64,000 bases of DNA, from IMG/VR virus record IMGVR_UViG_3300045125_000158, positions 1 to 64,000 of that record. One strand, written 5' to 3'. This stretch comes from a virus. The translations under genes and the position numbers were made by a program. The notes beneath the pieces are model-generated. The model was given only the letters and a program-made list of their open reading frames with translations, did no database searches and had not been told where the DNA came from. Positions 47,748-63,162 of this stretch are shown piece by piece; positions within the stretch are counted from its first letter, which is position 1; every line of letters starts with the position of its first letter.

Positions 47748-50446
47748 TTATTGACGCAATCTTCTTATCGTCTCATTGATGATGTCCTGGCTTATTCTAC
47801 TAAATATATCAACTAATGTTCTCTTTAAACTATCTACATCAACCTGACTTATACCTGCACCAGGAGTTGTAGTTGCTTGTCCGCCAAATTTTGCAACGCC
47901 TGTTGAAGGAAGACCTTCAAACGCTCCAGTGCCCAAAGGTCCTTTACCGAACGAAACAGCAGCAGCACTCATTCCAGCACTAGCACCCTGTGAATAATTC
48001 ATCATATTGGCAACATTTCTCTGCAAAGTATTAGCAGAACTAACACCCATTTTATTTAGAATACCTTGCTCATATGCCCCAGCAGCACCTTCTGTAAAAC
48101 CACCAACACCAAAACGGGCAGATGAAGTTCTGCCCACGCCTATGCCGCCTGTAGTCAACGCTTTCATTCCATCGGTTCTGCCTGCGGCTAAATTGCCTAA
48201 TCCTTGCTCTTGTGTTACCACAATTCTTTGAAATACGCCCGCTCCACTAGCCATAGCATCAATAGCTTTGATATAGCCTTCGCACAAACTTTTGAAATAT
48301 CTGCTTGCTTTTGTGTAGCCTGCACTTGCTTTTGTCTAGAATCGAGAATTTCCATATCAAAATCTCGTATTTGTCCAGCGATTTGCAATCTTCTTTCTTC
48401 AGTTGCAGTTTGTGCTTCCGCTAGTAATTTATTCTTCTCAGCGCCTATTAACATTTCACGATTTTTTTGCAATTGTATCTCATCTGCTAGCATTTGCACA
48501 ACTTGTTGCCTTGCCTCAGCTTGTGCTCGCAATCCCAAACCAGCACTGTCTAATAAAGAAATTTGCGACTCTTGTAAAGAAATTTGCTTGTCTAGCAAAC
48601 TAATTGTTGAATCTAATACGGTAGTGTTTCGCTTTCGTGCTTCGCCTTCTTCTTTTATCGCATCATTAAGGGCTTTTTGATCTTTGGCTAAATCTGCTTC
48701 AGCTTTTTTCGATCACGTTCATCATCTGCCGCAGCAATTCTTTCTAAATCTTTAATAATCATTTGTTGTAACAATTCTTGTTTAGCAAGACTCCTCGAAA
48801 TTTGTTCTTCATTAATTATTTTTGCTTGTGTTACATTCCCGCTTTTATTTATATTTTCAAATATTGCAGAAGCTAAGGCGTCTTGCTCTCGCATAACATT
48901 CATTGTGCGTTCAGTTTGCTGTCTGAAATCTTGGTAGACCTGCACTTGTTTCATAAGAGCATCTGTCTTTTCCTGTCCCATTAATTCTGGCTCAGCACTC
49001 GCTGCAGTATCTTCTGCAGCAGTTGCGGGCGACGACCCTTCGCCTTTTTTAGCCATAGCTTTATTAATGTCACGAGCAGCTAATCCCACATCAATTGCAA
49101 CCGAAGTGGCGGTCCCAAGTCCAGGAAGCGTGCTTGCCGCACCGCTTGCTAATTCCAGACCTGCGCCTACGGTATCTCCCTGCAGATATCTATGCAATGC
49201 AAAGCCAGCACCTGCTATAAGACCTATAATTGGTATTTTTTGCAAAACTCTTACCTAGACCCTTAGCTCCAATCTTGGCAACTTCCTCTGCTGCAAGTTT
49301 TTCACCCCCTTTATCGCGGCCTCGGCAATTCCTTTTTCTCCTGCTTTTGCCGCAGCTTCAGCAGCTTCTTTTGCCGCAGCTTCACCAACGCCTGTTTTGA
49401 ATACTTTACGTAAAGCAAATAAATCTCCAAATTTAGCAATAGCGCCACTTTTGTATCCCAGAATACTACCAATAATGCCGCCTCCAACTCCTAGAGCAGC
49501 AGCACCTGCGTTAGAAATTCCTTGCGTCTGTGTTGCTCCTGAAACGATAGAAGAAATTGTTCCAGAAAATTTTTCCAAATTAGTATTAGTAAGGCCAAGC
49601 ATTTCTTGAAACTTGAATAACTCCTCACCACCAGATTTCAGACCATCTTCAAAGGCTTTCTGCACAGTCTTTTCTTGCATTCTGAATCTGTCCATCTGAT
49701 TTATTTGTTGCTGTTCAGGCCCACCAGCTGCTGTTCTCCGCATTTCTTGAAATCCCTGCAGAAGCGGACTGGCTTGCCTGATAGTCATTTCTCCGGCTTT
49801 AATTCTTGCAAACACTGATCTTTCGAGCTTTTCAAAATCTCCAGCCATAAAAGCATCTTCAAGTTCTTTTGCTATCTTCTGTTAGTTTCTCGATGCCTTC
49901 TCTGAAAGAATTTACAGCTTCTAAATTGTTATTAAAACCCCGCATCATCGTATCTAAAGTTTTGATAAATTCCTGAGGAGCATGATAATCAAAACCTCTT
50001 GCTATACTTTGTGTTAATTTTAAAGATTCATCATAGGTTAATTTATATTTAGATCGCATCGTTTCGATTTGTCGGGTGAAATCATTTAATTTCATACCGT
50101 ATCTGCTATAAGCAGCTGAAACTTGTATTATTTGCGTATTAGTGTCTATTAGTAATTTCTTGGCATTTGCAGTGCTTATATTTGTTGCATTATACATCTG
50201 CCCAAATTTATTTACACCCTCTATAGCTGAATCTATCGCTTTTTTAACTTCACCAATAGCATCACCAAGGGCCTCATACTGTCTGCCCATTTGGCCTATT
50301 TTGCTATTCGCACGCTCAACAGACCTTCCCCATCTATCAATATCTAATTCAGCTTTTTCTATCCCTTCGGATTTAAACTTTACCTTTAGGGCATAATACA
50401 ACTCTCGCAATTCTTCTCTATTCATATTTTGCGGAATATCAGGCAT
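47748..50446 (-). CDS. Tape measure protein
   Basis: About 900 residues with breaks near 49858, 49280-49250, 48700, 48600 and 48280. Long helical N-terminal part (KSEGIEKAELDIDRWGRSVE, QMGRQYEALGDAIGEVKKA), typical Gly/Ala-rich hydrophobic stretches (AAALGVGGGIIGSILGYKSG; IIGLIAGAGFALHRYLQGD, then GLELASGAASTLPGLGTATS) and long Ala/Gln/Glu helices (AEARQQVVQMLADEIQLQKN). The C-terminus has a Gly-rich region with STGVAKFGGQ and ends IINETIRRLRQ. It sets tail length; at about 1.5 A per residue the tail would be some 130 nm. Position after tail tube and chaperones is canonical. Confidence 0.85.
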
Positions 50447-52307: not shown

Positions 52308-53425
52308 TTAAACGCGAATTGGCGTAAAGTACGCATCGGCTGTAGAACCGCCAAGACCACCAATTCCAGCATCATTGAGAACATCAATATTGCATGCACC
52401 TTTCTCAATCGCTTCATAGGCATTTTGGCAATCACCAAAGGCTATGAATGGCACGTTTGTTTCAACAATTTCATTCGTAACACTTACTTCTTCAATCTTG
52501 AATATACAGCCATGCAAAGCTGTTCCAAAGTAAGTATTATTGCCGCTACCGAATGTGTAGCCAAACTGTATACTGCAGCTACTGCTGTTGCGATCTTGAT
52601 TTTTATATATAAATTCATGGAAAGTTTTGACGGTGAAACCCATCAATTTTATACTACCCTCAACCGTTCTCTTTCTTGCCGTGACATCTTGCGGAGCTAA
52701 TTTGCCATTTAAAGTATAGAAACGATCAACGTTGTTGTTTAAAGTTACATCAAAACTTCTTATATATTGTCCGTTGAAAGTAATTCCACCTTGATCTCTG
52801 CAGAACACGCCAATTCTAAAGTCATTAAAAGTTACAACACGAGCTGGAGAAAGCATATTTAGACGATCAGCTTGATCACCATATGATGCGCCAGAAGTAA
52901 TTGCTTCACGCATGATTGTTTCTGATTGCTGTGGTCTACCTGCGCTCAACAATTCCAAAACGCATTTTTACCGATTCACCATTTGTTACCGAAAGATTGA
53001 GTGTATTTACCACGCAGCGAGGATACTTAAAAGCCATGTTGTCAGTATAACGTATATTTGTATCAAAATCAAACTTTAGACGGCCTTGGTCATCACGGGC
53101 AGATGCAATTTCCCAAAGAGTTTGAGCCAAACTTCTGCAACTATCGCTAGCGGTTCCGCAGTCTTTTGTTGTGTTGTATACTGATTCATGCACAAGAGGG
53201 AAGTCGCCAATCGCCATCTACCGTGCGAGGCATAATAGAATACAAGGTTCTATCCATACGTCCGTCAATAACTTCCTCTGGCCTAATTTCTTGTTTTGCT
53301 GAAATATTGCAGCTCGTTACGCGCAACAAAAATTCTCTCGTAGAAGTAGCAGGAGTAGGATTTATATTATCCAGTACTACACTACCAACAAATCCCATCT
53401 GTGCAGGAATACTAGGTCTTGACAT
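52308..53425 (-). CDS. Predicted tail tube protein
   Basis: About 373 residues after joining breaks near 53200 and 52955. N-terminus MSRPSIPAQMGFVGSVVLDN, then ATSTREFLLRVTSCNISAKQ. The C-terminal half has FRIGVFCRDQGGITFNGQYIRS, a beta strand series with RFYTLNGKLAPQDVTARKRTVEGSI. Such long beta hairpins with a 'K..P..V..GKRTVSGSI' pattern are usual in tail tube proteins. Context agrees: it lies after the neck genes and just before two chaperone-like genes and the tape measure. It has RBS AGGAGT and is followed by a terminator-like hairpin, as expected for an abundant protein. No sheath gene precedes it. Confidence 0.55.
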
Positions 53426-55227: not shown

Positions 55228-56139
55228 TCAAGACAATTGTGGATCTGACCAGCCGTGCCGTGTCTGTATTTCTTGCTCTTCGGCAGACCAACTTATAGTA
55301 GCTGCATGCAATAAAGATTCCTGAACCTTAAATCCATAATCTATGTTTGCTGGCCATGAATTATATATAAATTTCTCGAAACGTATAATTTTGAGTGCTA
55401 TCTGCAATAAAATAATTATGATAAACGTTTGGCCAAATCTGTATTGTCGTGGCATCTACAGCACATTTCACACGCAATTCTTCTGCTTGATAAATATTTT
55501 CAATTAATATTTTATCTTCTGGCTGGAAAATAGAACTATCAGCTACCTTAATGAAATCATCTCCACCTTGTACATTTGCAATCAGATTTGTTGTTGCATA
55601 TGGCCCAATCAAAGGAAAAATGTTTTTCTTTAATCCAAGCTGTATGATATCAGTTAATTGCAGGACCGTGCGATAAGAACTCTCGTCGTTATCAGTTTCT
55701 GCATATATTGCAATTGTTAATTCATACCGCTCTTTTGTTGTACCAAGAGTGAACCATTCTGATGCTCGTGATTTACCTAAAATTGTTATTGCAGGATAGC
55801 GAGGAATCACTGCAGGTTCACCAATATAGATGGCTTGCACAAATTGACCATTATATGTTTTAGTCAACATAGCGTTATTTGCTACGCTCCAGCCAGTAAT
55901 TACTTTTATAGGTGATTCAAGCTCTATTGTATTGTCATCAATTATTTCCGCAATTCTCAAGCCAGGTTCGCCATCTATGCCATTATGTATTGCTACTTCA
56001 TCGCCTTTTTCTAAATCTTCGCGAATTAGTAACTTTAAGGGTGGTTCCGCCATAATTAACATTCGCAGTCAAACTAACATTAGTATTGACCCAACGATAA
56101 ACAACTCTTCTGACGCTTTCGAGTATTTCTATCATTTGA
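55228..56139 (-). CDS. Neck / tail completion protein
   Basis: About 300 residues from ATG 56139 (MIEILESVRRVVYRWV), with breaks near 56050, 55400 and 55385. The N-terminal helix is followed by beta-rich segments with two copies of a turn typical of phage neck proteins: GDEVAIHNGIDGEPGLRIAEI and EDKILIENIYQAEELRVKC, each a 'DDKILI.N..G..E..RV..' hairpin. A middle part (AITILGKSRASEWFTLGTTKERYELTIA) resembles tail terminator-type proteins that measure a local coordinate system. Ends HGWSDPQLS at TGA 55230-55228. Context (between connector and tail tube) supports a head-tail joining or tail terminator role. Confidence 0.5.
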
Positions 56140-56430
56140 ATGCCTTATTTATCTTATCATCAATATACTTATCAGCAATATTACTAATTTTTTCTTTATT
56201 TCTTCATCAGTTTTATCAGAAAGTTTTGGGGCCTGCACTTTGCCGCTTTTCATGTAATCTTCATAATCTTTAATAGCCATAGCTTCTGGTATATCTTTTC
56301 CTATTCTTGCGTCAAGTTTTAAACCAGCATCTTTAAGTTCATTTGATCTTTGCATGCCTTCTAATCCGGCAATAAGCGTTTCTAAACTCTGCTTAAAATC
56401 AGCGAATGTATTACATATTTTTTGACTCAT
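56134..56430 (-). CDS. Small neck-region protein (~98 aa)
   Basis: Helical, charged protein: MSQKICNTFADFKQSL..., then GLEGMQRSNELKDAGLKLDARIGKDIPE and a Lys-rich C-terminus. Near 56190 a T6 run (plus strand) needs one more base; then the C-terminus reads KKKISNIADKYIDDKINKAFK and stops at TGA 56136-56134. It overlaps both neighbours by ATGA-type junctions, so it is part of a tightly coupled neck operon. Position suggests a head-tail joining or tail completion factor; no family recognised. Confidence 0.55.
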
Positions 56431-57156
56431 TGATCGCCACCCTTCATTTCTCTATCACCCGAACCTTCAAGACCAGGCAACCCATATCTATCACGCAACG
56501 TTGGGTTGAAGAAACGATGCCCGATTCGCTTTTGTCCATGCAGAATAATCATGCCACTCAAAATACTATTTATATCCGACAGAGCCCATTTTCTAAGAGT
56601 AGCTCCATACGTCGATTTGTCAGGATTCACTTGCGCTTGCAAAATATTTATCATACAAAGTTGCTGCTGCAAATCTTGCGCAACACAAAGTAATAGTGGG
56701 TGGATATTTTACGCGAATTACTCTTGAGGTTTCAGCATAATATATTCCCAACAGTGTGCTATTTAGAGTTACCAATCCGTCCAGAAATGCGCTTTAACAG
56801 TATGTCTTTCTTCTGTCAATGAATCGATAAAAATAAGCGTATCACCCGGATTGAGTGAATTAGCTTTATCAAGAAATACAAAACCGTTGTAAGCATCAAT
56901 ATCTTGCAATAGAGTAAGTTCAAGATCCGATTTTTCCATCAACGGAGTTACATACATTTCGCTTAATGATGCATCAATCTGATCTGAAGCCCAACTCAGA
57001 TACTGATATACAGTTTCTTCGGGTATATTATTTTGACTTTTTGCTTTTTCCAAATTGCCACAAAGGCACTGGTTGACCATTCACAACCGATGCCGTGGCT
57101 GATGTTAACGCTTGTCCAATTATATCGTAAACATGTTGAAGTGTTGCATATGCCAT
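56427..57156 (-). CDS. Head completion / head-tail connector protein
   Basis: About 240 residues after joining breaks near 57065, 56785 and 56650. It begins MAYATLQHVYDIIGQ (ATG 57156, GGGA upstream). The helix YQYLSWASDQIDASLSEMY followed by VTPL resembles phage gp6/gp36-type connector proteins (DUF1320-like), in which a helical bundle with Ile-Asp-x-x-Leu leads into an RYxxPL-like strand. A beta segment NSLNPGDTLIFIDS and a second helical part (ITLCCARFAAATLYDKYF) follow. The stop overlaps the next ATG (ATGA), showing coupling. Function assigned by resemblance and by its place before neck and tail genes. Confidence 0.45.
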
Positions 57157-57167
57157 TTATTTTCCCA

Positions 57168-58244
57168 TTAGTTCAAGATTCTATCTAATGGATCTTGAGT
57201 TTGGGAAGCATTCTGCATCTCTTTCTTCTGCGTAATTATTGCTTGCGTCAACAAACCTTCAACGACAGCATTCCTTGGACTCTTTGCGTGCCGTATTTCT
57301 TTTATCTGAAACGGCAACTGCAGACCCCTTACTATTTTCTCTAACTTTTTACAAAATCCTTTAGGCATACTGGTGCCACCAGCAACTACAATATCAAGAG
57401 GCTGCGTAAACTGACTCTTTACCTCTTGAAATTTCTTGCCAAACAACTTGAAAACATGTTCAATCATCGCGTCATAATATGCGTCTAAGGCAAAAAGTAT
57501 ATCATCATTCTCATCAAGATTAGTAAAATCTAATTTCTTTTCCTTAGCTGCTAATAATTTGACTTATCGCTGTGCCAGTTTGTTCTGCAACTTGCGTATC
57601 GATCCAATCGCCACTTCTTGCCACACTCATTCCAATCACCGGCAAGCCTTTATAAGCAAGCAAGCAATTTGCTCGACCAGCACCAAAAGAAACACCAATA
57701 CCCGAATATGGAACTACAGTACCATCTTCCTCAATAATTGTAGGTCTTTCACTAAGAATAACAGCATGTGCCTCTTCAATAATTTTTACTTTCCATCCTA
57801 ATCTCGTGAATAATGCAGTTAATCTGTTGCGATGGAATGTAGAATCTGCAGAATTATCAACAGACTCGCTGCTTACGCACGTACATACCCAGGAATTCTC
57901 ATCAGGAGCTTGTCCTATAGATGCACGTATCAACTCAGCAAGCACAACAAGTTTCTTATCTTCATTTTTGTTGAGAACGCCATCAGCCATAGGTCGGCGT
58001 ACTTCAACTTTACCTGGAAATATATTGGCAACCTTTATGCAATCGTCGCCAATAACATAATAGTTTTTACCATCCTTGATGTATTGCCAATTATTTGTAT
58101 TGAGACATCTTCAATATCATCGTTGGGTGGCAACTCAACAAAGGCGTTTCTAGTATTCTTTACTTTGATTTTATCATCTGCCATCTCTGCAACTTGAAAA
58201 AACATCGTCCCCACATCGACGGATACGGCTCTACTTTTGCCCAT
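57168..58244 (-). CDS. Actin/ParM-like ATPase
   Basis: About 355 residues, two frame breaks (near 58085 and 57550). The actin-fold motifs are in order: phosphate-1 SVDVGTMFFQVAE at the N-terminus, phosphate-2 GIGVSFGAGRANCLLAY in the middle, and the adenosine motif DIVVAGGTSMPKGF near the C-terminus, followed by RHAKSPRNAVVEGLL. This is the order in ParM/StbA and MreB-type proteins. RBS is GAGGAA before ATG 58244. In plasmids ParM filaments segregate DNA; some large phages carry actin-like proteins. Here it sits between a coiled-coil protein and head completion genes and has no adjacent ParR-like gene or centromere-like repeats, so a role in virion assembly or intracellular positioning is open. 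Confidence 0.8.
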
Positions 58245-58257
58245 AATTAATTTCCTC

Positions 58258-58835
58258 TTATAAAAGACCTTCTAATTCACTAATATTCTTACTAACGTCT
58301 TTATCGGTTGTTTGTTCTTCGTGCTTTACACTCGATTGCGTTTTGTTTACCAAACGATTCAATGTTCTTTTTTGTATGTCAATCAATTTGCTTGAATTAA
58401 TATCTGCTGCAGGCTGTTCTTGTTTAGCGCACTTGCAATAGGTTTGCCATTTGCAGAGCTAACTAAGCCTTGCAAGGCAGCTACGCTGATTCAAAGCGTT
58501 CATATCGACTTGCGGCTGTGTTTGAGCTACTTTTTCTTCTAATCTTTTTGTAATCTTTTCTTCTAATTGTTTTACCACATCAGCTACATTCACTTGTGGT
58601 TGTGCTGGGGGTTCTTCGTAAACTGGCTCTGCTATTTTAATAGCCGTAGTGCCATCATCTTTGCAAACACACTGCAATTTATCCGCCGACGAAAAAAGCT
58701 TTTAAATTACGTGATTGCTCAATATAAAAATCTTGATGTCACCATATCAAGATCAATCTTTTCTCCTGGAGTTAATGTTACACGAAGATCTGGTATAGTG
58801 ACATCATGCAGTGCAATATTTTTTATGATGTACAT
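58258..58835 (-). CDS. Structural-type protein with N-terminal beta domain and coiled coil (frame breaks)
   Basis: Starts at ATG 58835 behind AGGAGG (58841-58846). The N-terminus (MYIIKNIALHDVTIP, then LTPGEKIDLD) resembles a small beta domain seen in phage virion proteins, where a hydrophobic strand and a PGE/PGQ turn precede a helix. Next come EQSRNLKAFF, a Pro/Glu linker, a strong coiled coil (VVKQLEEKITKRLEEK) and a Lys/Glu-rich tail ending SELEGLL. At least three breaks, near 58722, 58490 and 58430, are bridged by single-base shifts. It ends at TAA 58260-58258, and a GAGGAA site for the next gene follows at once. Function unknown; probably a virion or assembly factor. Confidence 0.55.
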
Positions 58836-59032
58836 TATATCCTCCTCGGCTTTGGATACTTACCAGGCAATGGTTTAGAAAAATCCATTTCATTCATTTT
58901 TTTGCATTCTTGGCACAGCCAATAAACTTTATTGTCATTAAAGTTAAATTCGATTGTAGGATTTTTCTGATGATATCTACAGAATCCACAAACAGCCATA
59001 ATTTTTACAATATTATCATCATTTTCTGACAT
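58835..59032 (-). CDS. Small Cys4 zinc-ribbon protein
   Basis: 65 residues, unbroken. Two CxxC pairs, CGFC (about residues 15-18) and CQEC (about 40-43), are separated by a beta-type linker, as in zinc ribbons. The C-terminus is basic, KYPKPRRI. Nothing catalytic is visible. The stop TAA overlaps the next start (TAATG), so it is translationally coupled to the 58258-58835 gene. Such small zinc-binding proteins are common in phage genomes; DNA, RNA or protein binding cannot be decided here. Confidence 0.7.
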   Translation of the reverse strand: MSENDDNIVKIMAVCGFCRYHQKNPTIEFNFNDNKVYWLCQECKKMNEMDFSKPLPGKYPKPRRI

Positions 59033-62292: not shown

Positions 62293-63075
62293 TCAGCCGC
62301 GAAAGTTTCCATCATCAGTTTTTAAATCTTTTGCATCTTTAATATCTATCTTTTTGGCAGATTTTACAGCATATACGTTGTCTTTATATCGCTGATCTAT
62401 ATCAGCAACAATCTTATCTCGTACGCAACTTGAATAATCGAGTTCAACAAACACAAGGTCCTGTATGTCCTGTAATCTATTCAAAGCGTCAGCAAGACCG
62501 TTAAGCTTTGTACCAATGTCAGATTGCTCTACATCGCCTGTGCAAACAATCTTGCTACCTTCACCAATTCTTGTAAGCAACATTCGCATTTGCTGAGGAC
62601 TCATATTCTGCACTTCATCCGCAATAACATAAGATTTACGGAATGTAATCCCACGCATGTAAGCTATTGGATAAACAATAATTTTCTTTTCATCCATTAA
62701 TTCTTTCATGTCGTCGTTGCTCAAATAATCACTAACAACTTCATAGAGAGGCATAGTAAATGGAGCGAATTTATCGCTACTACCACCTGGAAGAAAACCT
62801 AACTTTTCGCCAGCTTCAACATATGGCCGAGTAAATATTACCCTATCATATGTTCCTTTGATCAGCTCTTGAATTCCCCATCCAACGGCACAATGCGTTT
62901 TTCCGCTACCACTCGCCCCATACACAAATGTAACTTTATTTTCTGAAATTGCTTTAAGAGCTTTTTTCTGGCCAGCATTTTTAGCAGTAACTGCAATTAC
63001 CAATTTTGTAGCAGAATCTTTAGCAGGATATGAAAAATCATTGGCATCCTTCTTGTTCTTTGTTTTTCTGGCCAT
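62293..63075 (-). CDS. phoH: PhoH-family P-loop ATPase
   Basis: PhoH-like ATPase of 260 residues, the usual length of phage PhoH proteins, and unbroken. Walker A is YGASGSGKT at residues 52-60. Walker B is VIADEVQN at about 150-157, followed by MSPQQMRMLLTRIG and CTGDVEQSD, the typical sensor region. The start is the ATG at 63075, which has AGGAG at 63081-63085 five bases upstream; the open frame runs further up but through a hairpin. The N-terminus is lysine-rich. PhoH proteins are widespread in phages; the bacterial gene belongs to the phosphate-starvation regulon and the family is related to RNA helicase/nuclease fusions. The role here is unproven. Confidence 0.95.
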   Translation of the reverse strand: MARKTKNKKDANDFSYPAKDSATKLVIAVTAKNAGQKKALKAISENKVTFVYGASGSGKTHCAVGWGIQELIKGTYDRVIFTRPYVEAGEKLGFLPGGSSDKFAPFTMPLYEVVSDYLSNDDMKELMDEKKIIVYPIAYMRGITFRKSYVIADEVQNMSPQQMRMLLTRIGEGSKIVCTGDVEQSDIGTKLNGLADALNRLQDIQDLVFVELDYSSCVRDKIVADIDQRYKDNVYAVKSAKKIDIKDAKDLKTDDGNFRG

Positions 63076-63088
63076 ACAAGCTCCTAGT

Positions 63089-63162
63089 GTATAAAATAAA
63101 AATCTTCCAAACTTCTCTACATTGAGTGCAAACAAAACATCTAGTTTGCATTTTGGAAGATT
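63089..63162 (-). terminator. Nested hairpin and T-tract between the 63250 gene and phoH (terminator or leader attenuator)
   Basis: An outer 11-bp stem AATCTTCCAAA/TTTGGAAGATT (63152-63162 with 63101-63111) encloses a second stem TGCAAAC/GTTTGCA (63144-63150 with 63127-63133). On the minus strand it is followed by TTTTTATTTTA, then the phoH Shine-Dalgarno about 5 bases later. The shape is a rho-independent terminator; its position directly on the phoH ribosome binding site also allows a leader role. Confidence 0.6.

Follow-up and report, generated by a model that had tools for sequence, protein, structure and literature searches.

The sequence window analyzed in this study, a stretch of 64,000 nucleotides, belongs to a virus record of 187,259 bases with a GC content of 34%. 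On its minus strand, a gene encoding a Volactin-family actin-like ATPase was located at positions 57168..58244 (start 58244, end 57168), as deduced from Pfam and from intact homologues in three related records (L002, L003 and L029), which are 81-86% identical to the window actin. An actin-type ATPase had originally been predicted for exactly these coordinates; the gene was found to occupy three reading frames instead of one, namely as an N-terminal, a middle and a C-terminal piece, the frame being broken by indels near 58104-58107 and 57526-57560. The relative L029 is collinear with the window and intact, and 8 of 13 comparable window genes are frame-split (seven without one very divergent gene), for example in the regions 55190-54029 and 58835-56427. 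Since frame-splitting also affects most of the compared neighbors, the breaks in the actin gene are a matter of error-prone assembly and not of decay of the gene itself, and the lack of an open frame in this error-prone record therefore carries little meaning. For split genes, no base was restored; the pieces were read unaltered and joined as protein for the searches. The unbroken stretch of the actin gene (181 codons) features dN values of 0.11-0.15 relative to the closest intact relatives, with dS being 1.6 or saturated. As judged from these codon comparisons, this segment is under purifying selection.

Genomic setting among structural genes

Upstream of the actin gene, a frameshifted adaptor-type partner gene (58258..58835, minus strand, cluster 6) was identified, encoding a small N-terminal domain, a coiled coil and a C-terminal tail ending in KNISELEGLL. 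Its AGGAGG ribosome-binding site (58841..58846, minus strand) precedes the gene start at 58835, in agreement with the original prediction of a coiled-coil flank possessing its own AGGAGG. Further genes on the minus strand comprise a small zinc-ribbon-like protein rich in cysteine, encoded immediately before the adaptor (58835..59032, cluster 13, conserved in group A, to which the window belongs), a PhoH-like ATPase further upstream (62293..63135, conserved in the group A gene order), the cluster 2 gene directly downstream of the actin (56427..57156, conserved beside it in group A) and a structural-module gene of cluster 3 (55231..56135, conserved in group A). A neck or connector role is suspected for the cluster 2 gene; the connector label given to it previously was not confirmed, as neither Pfam nor PHROG provided a match for this gene. 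The predicted setting among head-tail genes was substantiated by the tail tube gene (52308..53404, minus strand, Pfam Phage_tube_2), marking the downstream tail module, and by the start of the tape-measure region (49859..50446, minus strand), which was recognized by PHROG comparison and collinearity with L029. A long series of large tail-fibre or adhesin-like genes extends downstream of the tail module (260-48000, minus strand).

Gene order was compared for about 100 loci. Members of group A encode, in this order, PhoH, a large variable protein, the cysteine-rich protein, the adaptor, the actin, cluster 2, cluster 82, cluster 3, a glycosyltransferase, cluster 4 and the tail tube, followed at some distance by the tape measure. 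In group B, a Neck1-type protein is encoded two genes upstream and a sheath-like protein (weak Pfam match) downstream, group C carries a head maturation protease gene before the adaptor and the large terminase gene some kilobases after it, and group F features a portal gene downstream of the actin. The largest group shows one repeated gene order around adaptor and actin. Because the location among structural genes recurs across lineages, the tie of the actin to these genes is no accident of this window. The expectation that filament genes of large phages lie apart from neck genes does not hold, as this actin gene adjoins genes for Neck1, sheath, tube, portal or terminase in several lineages.

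The fact that Neck1, sheath, tube, portal and head protease genes are tightly and recurrently linked to the actin gene would also be compatible with an assembly factor without cytomotive function. In this case, actin and partner would serve as a nucleotide-driven scaffold or checkpoint in the assembly of neck or tail, forming no long filaments and acting in monomeric or short oligomeric form or as a fixed subunit of the virion. This explanation is regarded as rather unlikely, considering the structural and cellular relatives of the protein described below.

Family membership, fold and nucleotide site

When read through its frame breaks, the window actin matched the Pfam family Volactin (PF25216) with 205.5 bits (E 1.8e-60, profile positions 3-321 of 321), the curated cut-off being 35 bits. 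This cut-off was passed by all seven phage records (7/7); window-type phages score 205-219 bits on the profile, archaea about 400. The cut-off of Pfam MreB_Mbl was missed (20.1 bits vs. 27), and the window actin also remained below the cut-off of the Pfam Actin profile. Searching with one conserved actin segment as query yielded 15 viral relatives, and alignment-based scans of IMG/VR resulted in 222, at least 587 and 399 confirmed relatives, respectively, these sets being overlapping. Among the matches listed, IMG/VR contigs reach up to 548 kb. Within 50,697 phage genome records (INPHARED), only two strong matches were obtained, one in a phage of 485 kb and the other in a phage of 595 kb, both uncultured and unannotated; a short record of uncultured origin provided one further, weak match. 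No isolated or cultured phage carrying this actin was found in the IMG/VR scans and the 50,697 phage genome records, the PHROG library holds no family for it, and no published description of volactin-type actins in phages was found in the literature, coverage of which was incomplete. The new element reported here is a two-gene module of actin and partner that is widespread in uncultured large phages and was found in no cultured phage. As side observations, the actins of group E (L113-L126) possess N-terminal extensions of roughly 70-240 residues, and one phage actin (L016:8495-10579) is interrupted at the phosphate-2 loop by an intein-like insertion. Among ATP-binding proteins, this loop is a place where inteins typically occur.

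The AlphaFold2 model of the intact actin of L029, based on an alignment of 67 relatives, reached a pLDDT of 95.7 and a pTM of 0.93. Best Foldseek matches in the PDB were Mbl/MreB, MreB filaments, the BeeR filament (TM 0.70), MamK and actins, and the top 50 PDB matches were actins except for one Hsp70 domain (BiP) at rank 43. Hsp70 homologues were also among the matches in a viral structure library, these being weaker than the PDB actin matches. Likewise, sequence profile searches returned MamK (4e-12), MreB (1e-7) and BeeR (2e-4). An identity as Hsp70 or sugar kinase was ranked lower, since structure and profile searches group the protein with filament-forming actins. The same placement with MreB, MamK, BeeR and actin favors the filament reading of the original prediction, and, with only one Hsp70 domain among the top 50 PDB matches, its alternative of an enzyme-like actin fold is disfavored.

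The protein combines the actin fold with the phosphate-1, connect-1, phosphate-2 and adenosine motifs that define the actin superfamily, and DxGT, the connect-1 Glu, SFGAG, GDWxD and GG are invariant or nearly so among the 67 relatives. All nucleotide-binding motifs of an actin-type ATPase, as claimed beforehand, are hence present, with one substitution: where MamK and MreB have the phosphate-2 Asp, a Ser is present that is invariant throughout the family. Replacement of this catalytic residue could entail slow hydrolysis and is a second point in favor of a non-cytomotive assembly factor. However, the archaeal volactins in the alignment carry the identical Ser, and the volactin of Haloferax forms dynamic filaments in vivo (PMC10869688); the exchange is therefore compatible with polymerization. 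Moreover, the nearest structures and sequence relatives of the phage protein are polymerizing actins, which further speaks against the assembly factor.

The upstream partner gene

The partner gene is the strongest clue to the mechanism. In 95 of 96 loci, the gene upstream of the actin is encoded on the same strand, and the median distance between the two genes is 9 nt. Partners differ between lineages and have in common a tail of about 45 residues at the C-terminus, following the pattern E-x-(Y/F)-(I/V)-P-x-(I/V) and then, after a spacer, a final helix S-V-x-x-x-L-x-x-L-(K/R)-x-L-(K/R)-K. Pfam matches of the partners represented coiled-coil noise, and de novo profiles were therefore used. In a leave-one-group-out analysis of the tail profile, the adaptor was top-ranked among all locus proteins in 11 of 13 held-out groups, with E-values of 1e-6 to 1e-3 for B2, B3, C, D, H and L085 and weak values elsewhere; the test failed for groups B1 and L060. 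In group A, adaptors occupied the first six ranks among 515 proteins, with E-values of 1-2 that are not individually significant. An independent check was performed by applying the frozen profile to 60 new loci, the actins of which were less than 70% identical to the training set and at most 85% identical to each other. Here, the gene at position -1 was top-ranked in 32 of 60 loci (5.8 expected), and the best tail match was located at -1, -2 or -3 in 52 of 60.

Comparison of tails by means of hhalign yielded mutual probabilities of 82-92% for B2, B3 and D, and a low value for group C vs. B2, which nevertheless exceeded all controls. Tails of groups A and B1 scored no higher than controls. N-terminal domains matched at 94-95% for the pairs A-B2 and B1-B2. 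Accordingly, the shared tail on the upstream gene holds for most groups, and group A, in which it is weak, is linked to the other groups via the N-domain instead. The N-terminal module is a small domain in groups A and B and in the largest group, and a coiled coil in group C. Partners of group H, of several loci in group E and of one group F member have one membrane helix instead; among these, the tail was seen only in group H. At several group E loci, the protein encoded just upstream of the actin is a small membrane-helix protein, and four of these end in a motif of the type P-x-x-x-GGFG.

A constant tail combined with exchangeable heads is the pattern expected of an adaptor family, and on the basis of these sequence features the tail may bind actin. 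In an AlphaFold2 model of a fused adaptor tail and actin (L054, with one stop codon read through), built to look for docking, the tail reached pLDDT values of 50-66. The adaptor N-domain is present also on partner proteins of Planctomycetota and on a glycosyltransferase and is thus not virion-specific. A glycosyltransferase-like protein with an adaptor-like N-terminal domain (weak match) was observed in the same phages (L035, L040 and L044; cluster 65). In one phage lineage, adaptor and actin are separated by an inserted Dps/ferritin-like gene (cluster 7; L188:3292-3945 and 22 further loci).

An adjacent adaptor gene also calls to mind DNA segregation or positioning of the ParM/AlpC type, in which the partner would bind phage DNA and the filament would move genomes, not virion parts. 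The general analogy to ParMRC and to AlpAC of prophage CGP3, both consisting of a filament and an adaptor encoded by an adjacent gene (PMC4446434, PMC5539076), is in favor of this explanation, which nonetheless appears improbable: the genes sit in late structural modules, some partners are predicted to be membrane-anchored, no partner matched a DNA-binding family, and no centromere-like repeat array was present at the four loci examined. The latter result, covering the window and other loci, bears out the earlier statement that centromere-like repeats are missing. The related statement that no ParR-like gene adjoins was correct insofar as no ParR family member was found, but the coiled-coil neighbor turned out to be a conserved adaptor-type partner.

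Cellular relatives, proposed function and comparison with known systems

The Volactin cut-off was passed in 59 of 149 sampled Planctomycetota and, within the archaeal phylum to which L109 belongs, in 13 of 145 genomes. Genes in the GC-rich Planctomycetota loci were called by third-position GC, and three loci binned with cellular genomes (L110, L111 and L112) were counted as phage-like because of genes they have in common with phage groups. In four Planctomycetota loci (L103, L104, L106 and L107), the gene upstream of the volactin encodes the N-domain of the group A adaptor (nearest phage protein: E 5.6e-12), and in four others (L134, L135, L136 and L138) the upstream gene product has the tail (E 0.004-0.13). 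The former set is surrounded by an ABC transporter gene and other housekeeping-type genes recognized by eye, an LPG_synthase_TM gene was identified by Pfam directly downstream in L103, and the pair looks chromosomal there. No published description of Planctomycetota volactins with an upstream partner was found in the literature, which was covered incompletely. In the two archaeal loci examined, a DUF7139 membrane protein is encoded directly upstream of the volactin (2/2; L109:8974-9975, L128:560-1405) and represents a candidate membrane anchor for archaeal volactin filaments.

Occurrence of the same, apparently chromosomal pair in Planctomycetota, where there is no virion to build, is a further argument against an assembly factor. 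On the other hand, these relatives raise the possibility that the phage actin is a Planctomycetota-type volactin copy acting as mimic of the host cytoskeleton or as cell-shape effector, disturbing or replacing a host filament. Frequent occurrence of Volactin proteins above cut-off in Planctomycetota, the partner N-domain common to them and group A phages, and the phylogenetic tree, in which group A actins are sister to the volactins of L103-L107 (support 100/98), are in line with such a role. Yet the remaining phage groups are not sister to these Planctomycetota, and the position of the gene within the structural module is fixed, so that this role is considered improbable.

Membership in the Volactin/actin family, the conserved nucleotide site, the conserved partner and the conserved location among structural genes together characterize the phage system. 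Based on these features, formation of ATP-driven filaments by the phage actin is likely, and a late filament and adaptor system for anchoring or moving virion parts is proposed, to which we assign a roughly even chance. It ranks first, followed by the assembly factor, DNA segregation and, finally, interference with the host cytoskeleton. In the proposed mechanism, actin and adaptor would be produced alongside neck and tail genes, and the actin would polymerize into ATP-dependent filaments late in infection, working together with the adaptor encoded upstream. The adaptor would bind actin, as filament or as monomer, through its C-terminal tail and would hold cargo or anchor through its variable N-terminal module, which is a coiled coil or small domain or, in some phages, a membrane helix. 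Virion parts are the presumed cargo, and the filaments would accordingly keep capsids, tails or packaging complexes in place or transport them. With somewhat less confidence, we suggest that hundreds of uncultured large phages encode a hitherto undescribed actin cargo system, in which the constant tail sits on the filament and the exchangeable module serves for docking of virion parts or of the membrane, and that Planctomycetota possess a related pair.

Among known systems, volactin of Haloferax volcanii (VolA, HVO_2015, PF25216) resembles the phage actin in passing the family cut-off, in its motif set and in having a dedicated upstream gene, and the phage actin aligns with archaeal volactin members including the Ser at phosphate-2. 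In contrast, the DUF7139 membrane protein encoded upstream in the two archaeal relatives L109 and L128 is unlike the phage adaptors, and the Haloferax protein has a role in cell shape, whereas the phage actin is part of a viral module. Of the solved structures, MamK, MreB and BeeR come closest in fold and profile, but the phage actin differs from them by falling below the Pfam MreB cut-off, by its gene neighborhood and by having its own partner. ParMRC and AlpAC of prophage CGP3 likewise combine an actin-like protein with an adaptor encoded by a neighboring gene; the phage actin belongs to another actin family, lacks centromere repeats, is located among late structural genes and has a partner that is not a known DNA binder.

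Phage cytoskeletons moving virion parts are known mainly from tubulin, i.e., PhuZ, which builds the spindle of nucleus-forming jumbo phages. The pair described here would be the actin counterpart of this system, both having the proposed role of a phage-encoded cytomotive filament for virion parts, but with actin in place of tubulin. No tubulin was detected in 18 of the larger volactin-phage records, a result to be read with the qualification that the tubulin model may miss divergent PhuZ and that records may be fragmentary; it fits an alternative filament. The gene pair is a short one, with intact copies in several relatives, and it provides the first candidate partner for bacterial Volactin-family members. 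If the proposed role is true, filament-assisted virion assembly arose in phages not only on the basis of tubulin, as represented by PhuZ, but on an actin basis as well.
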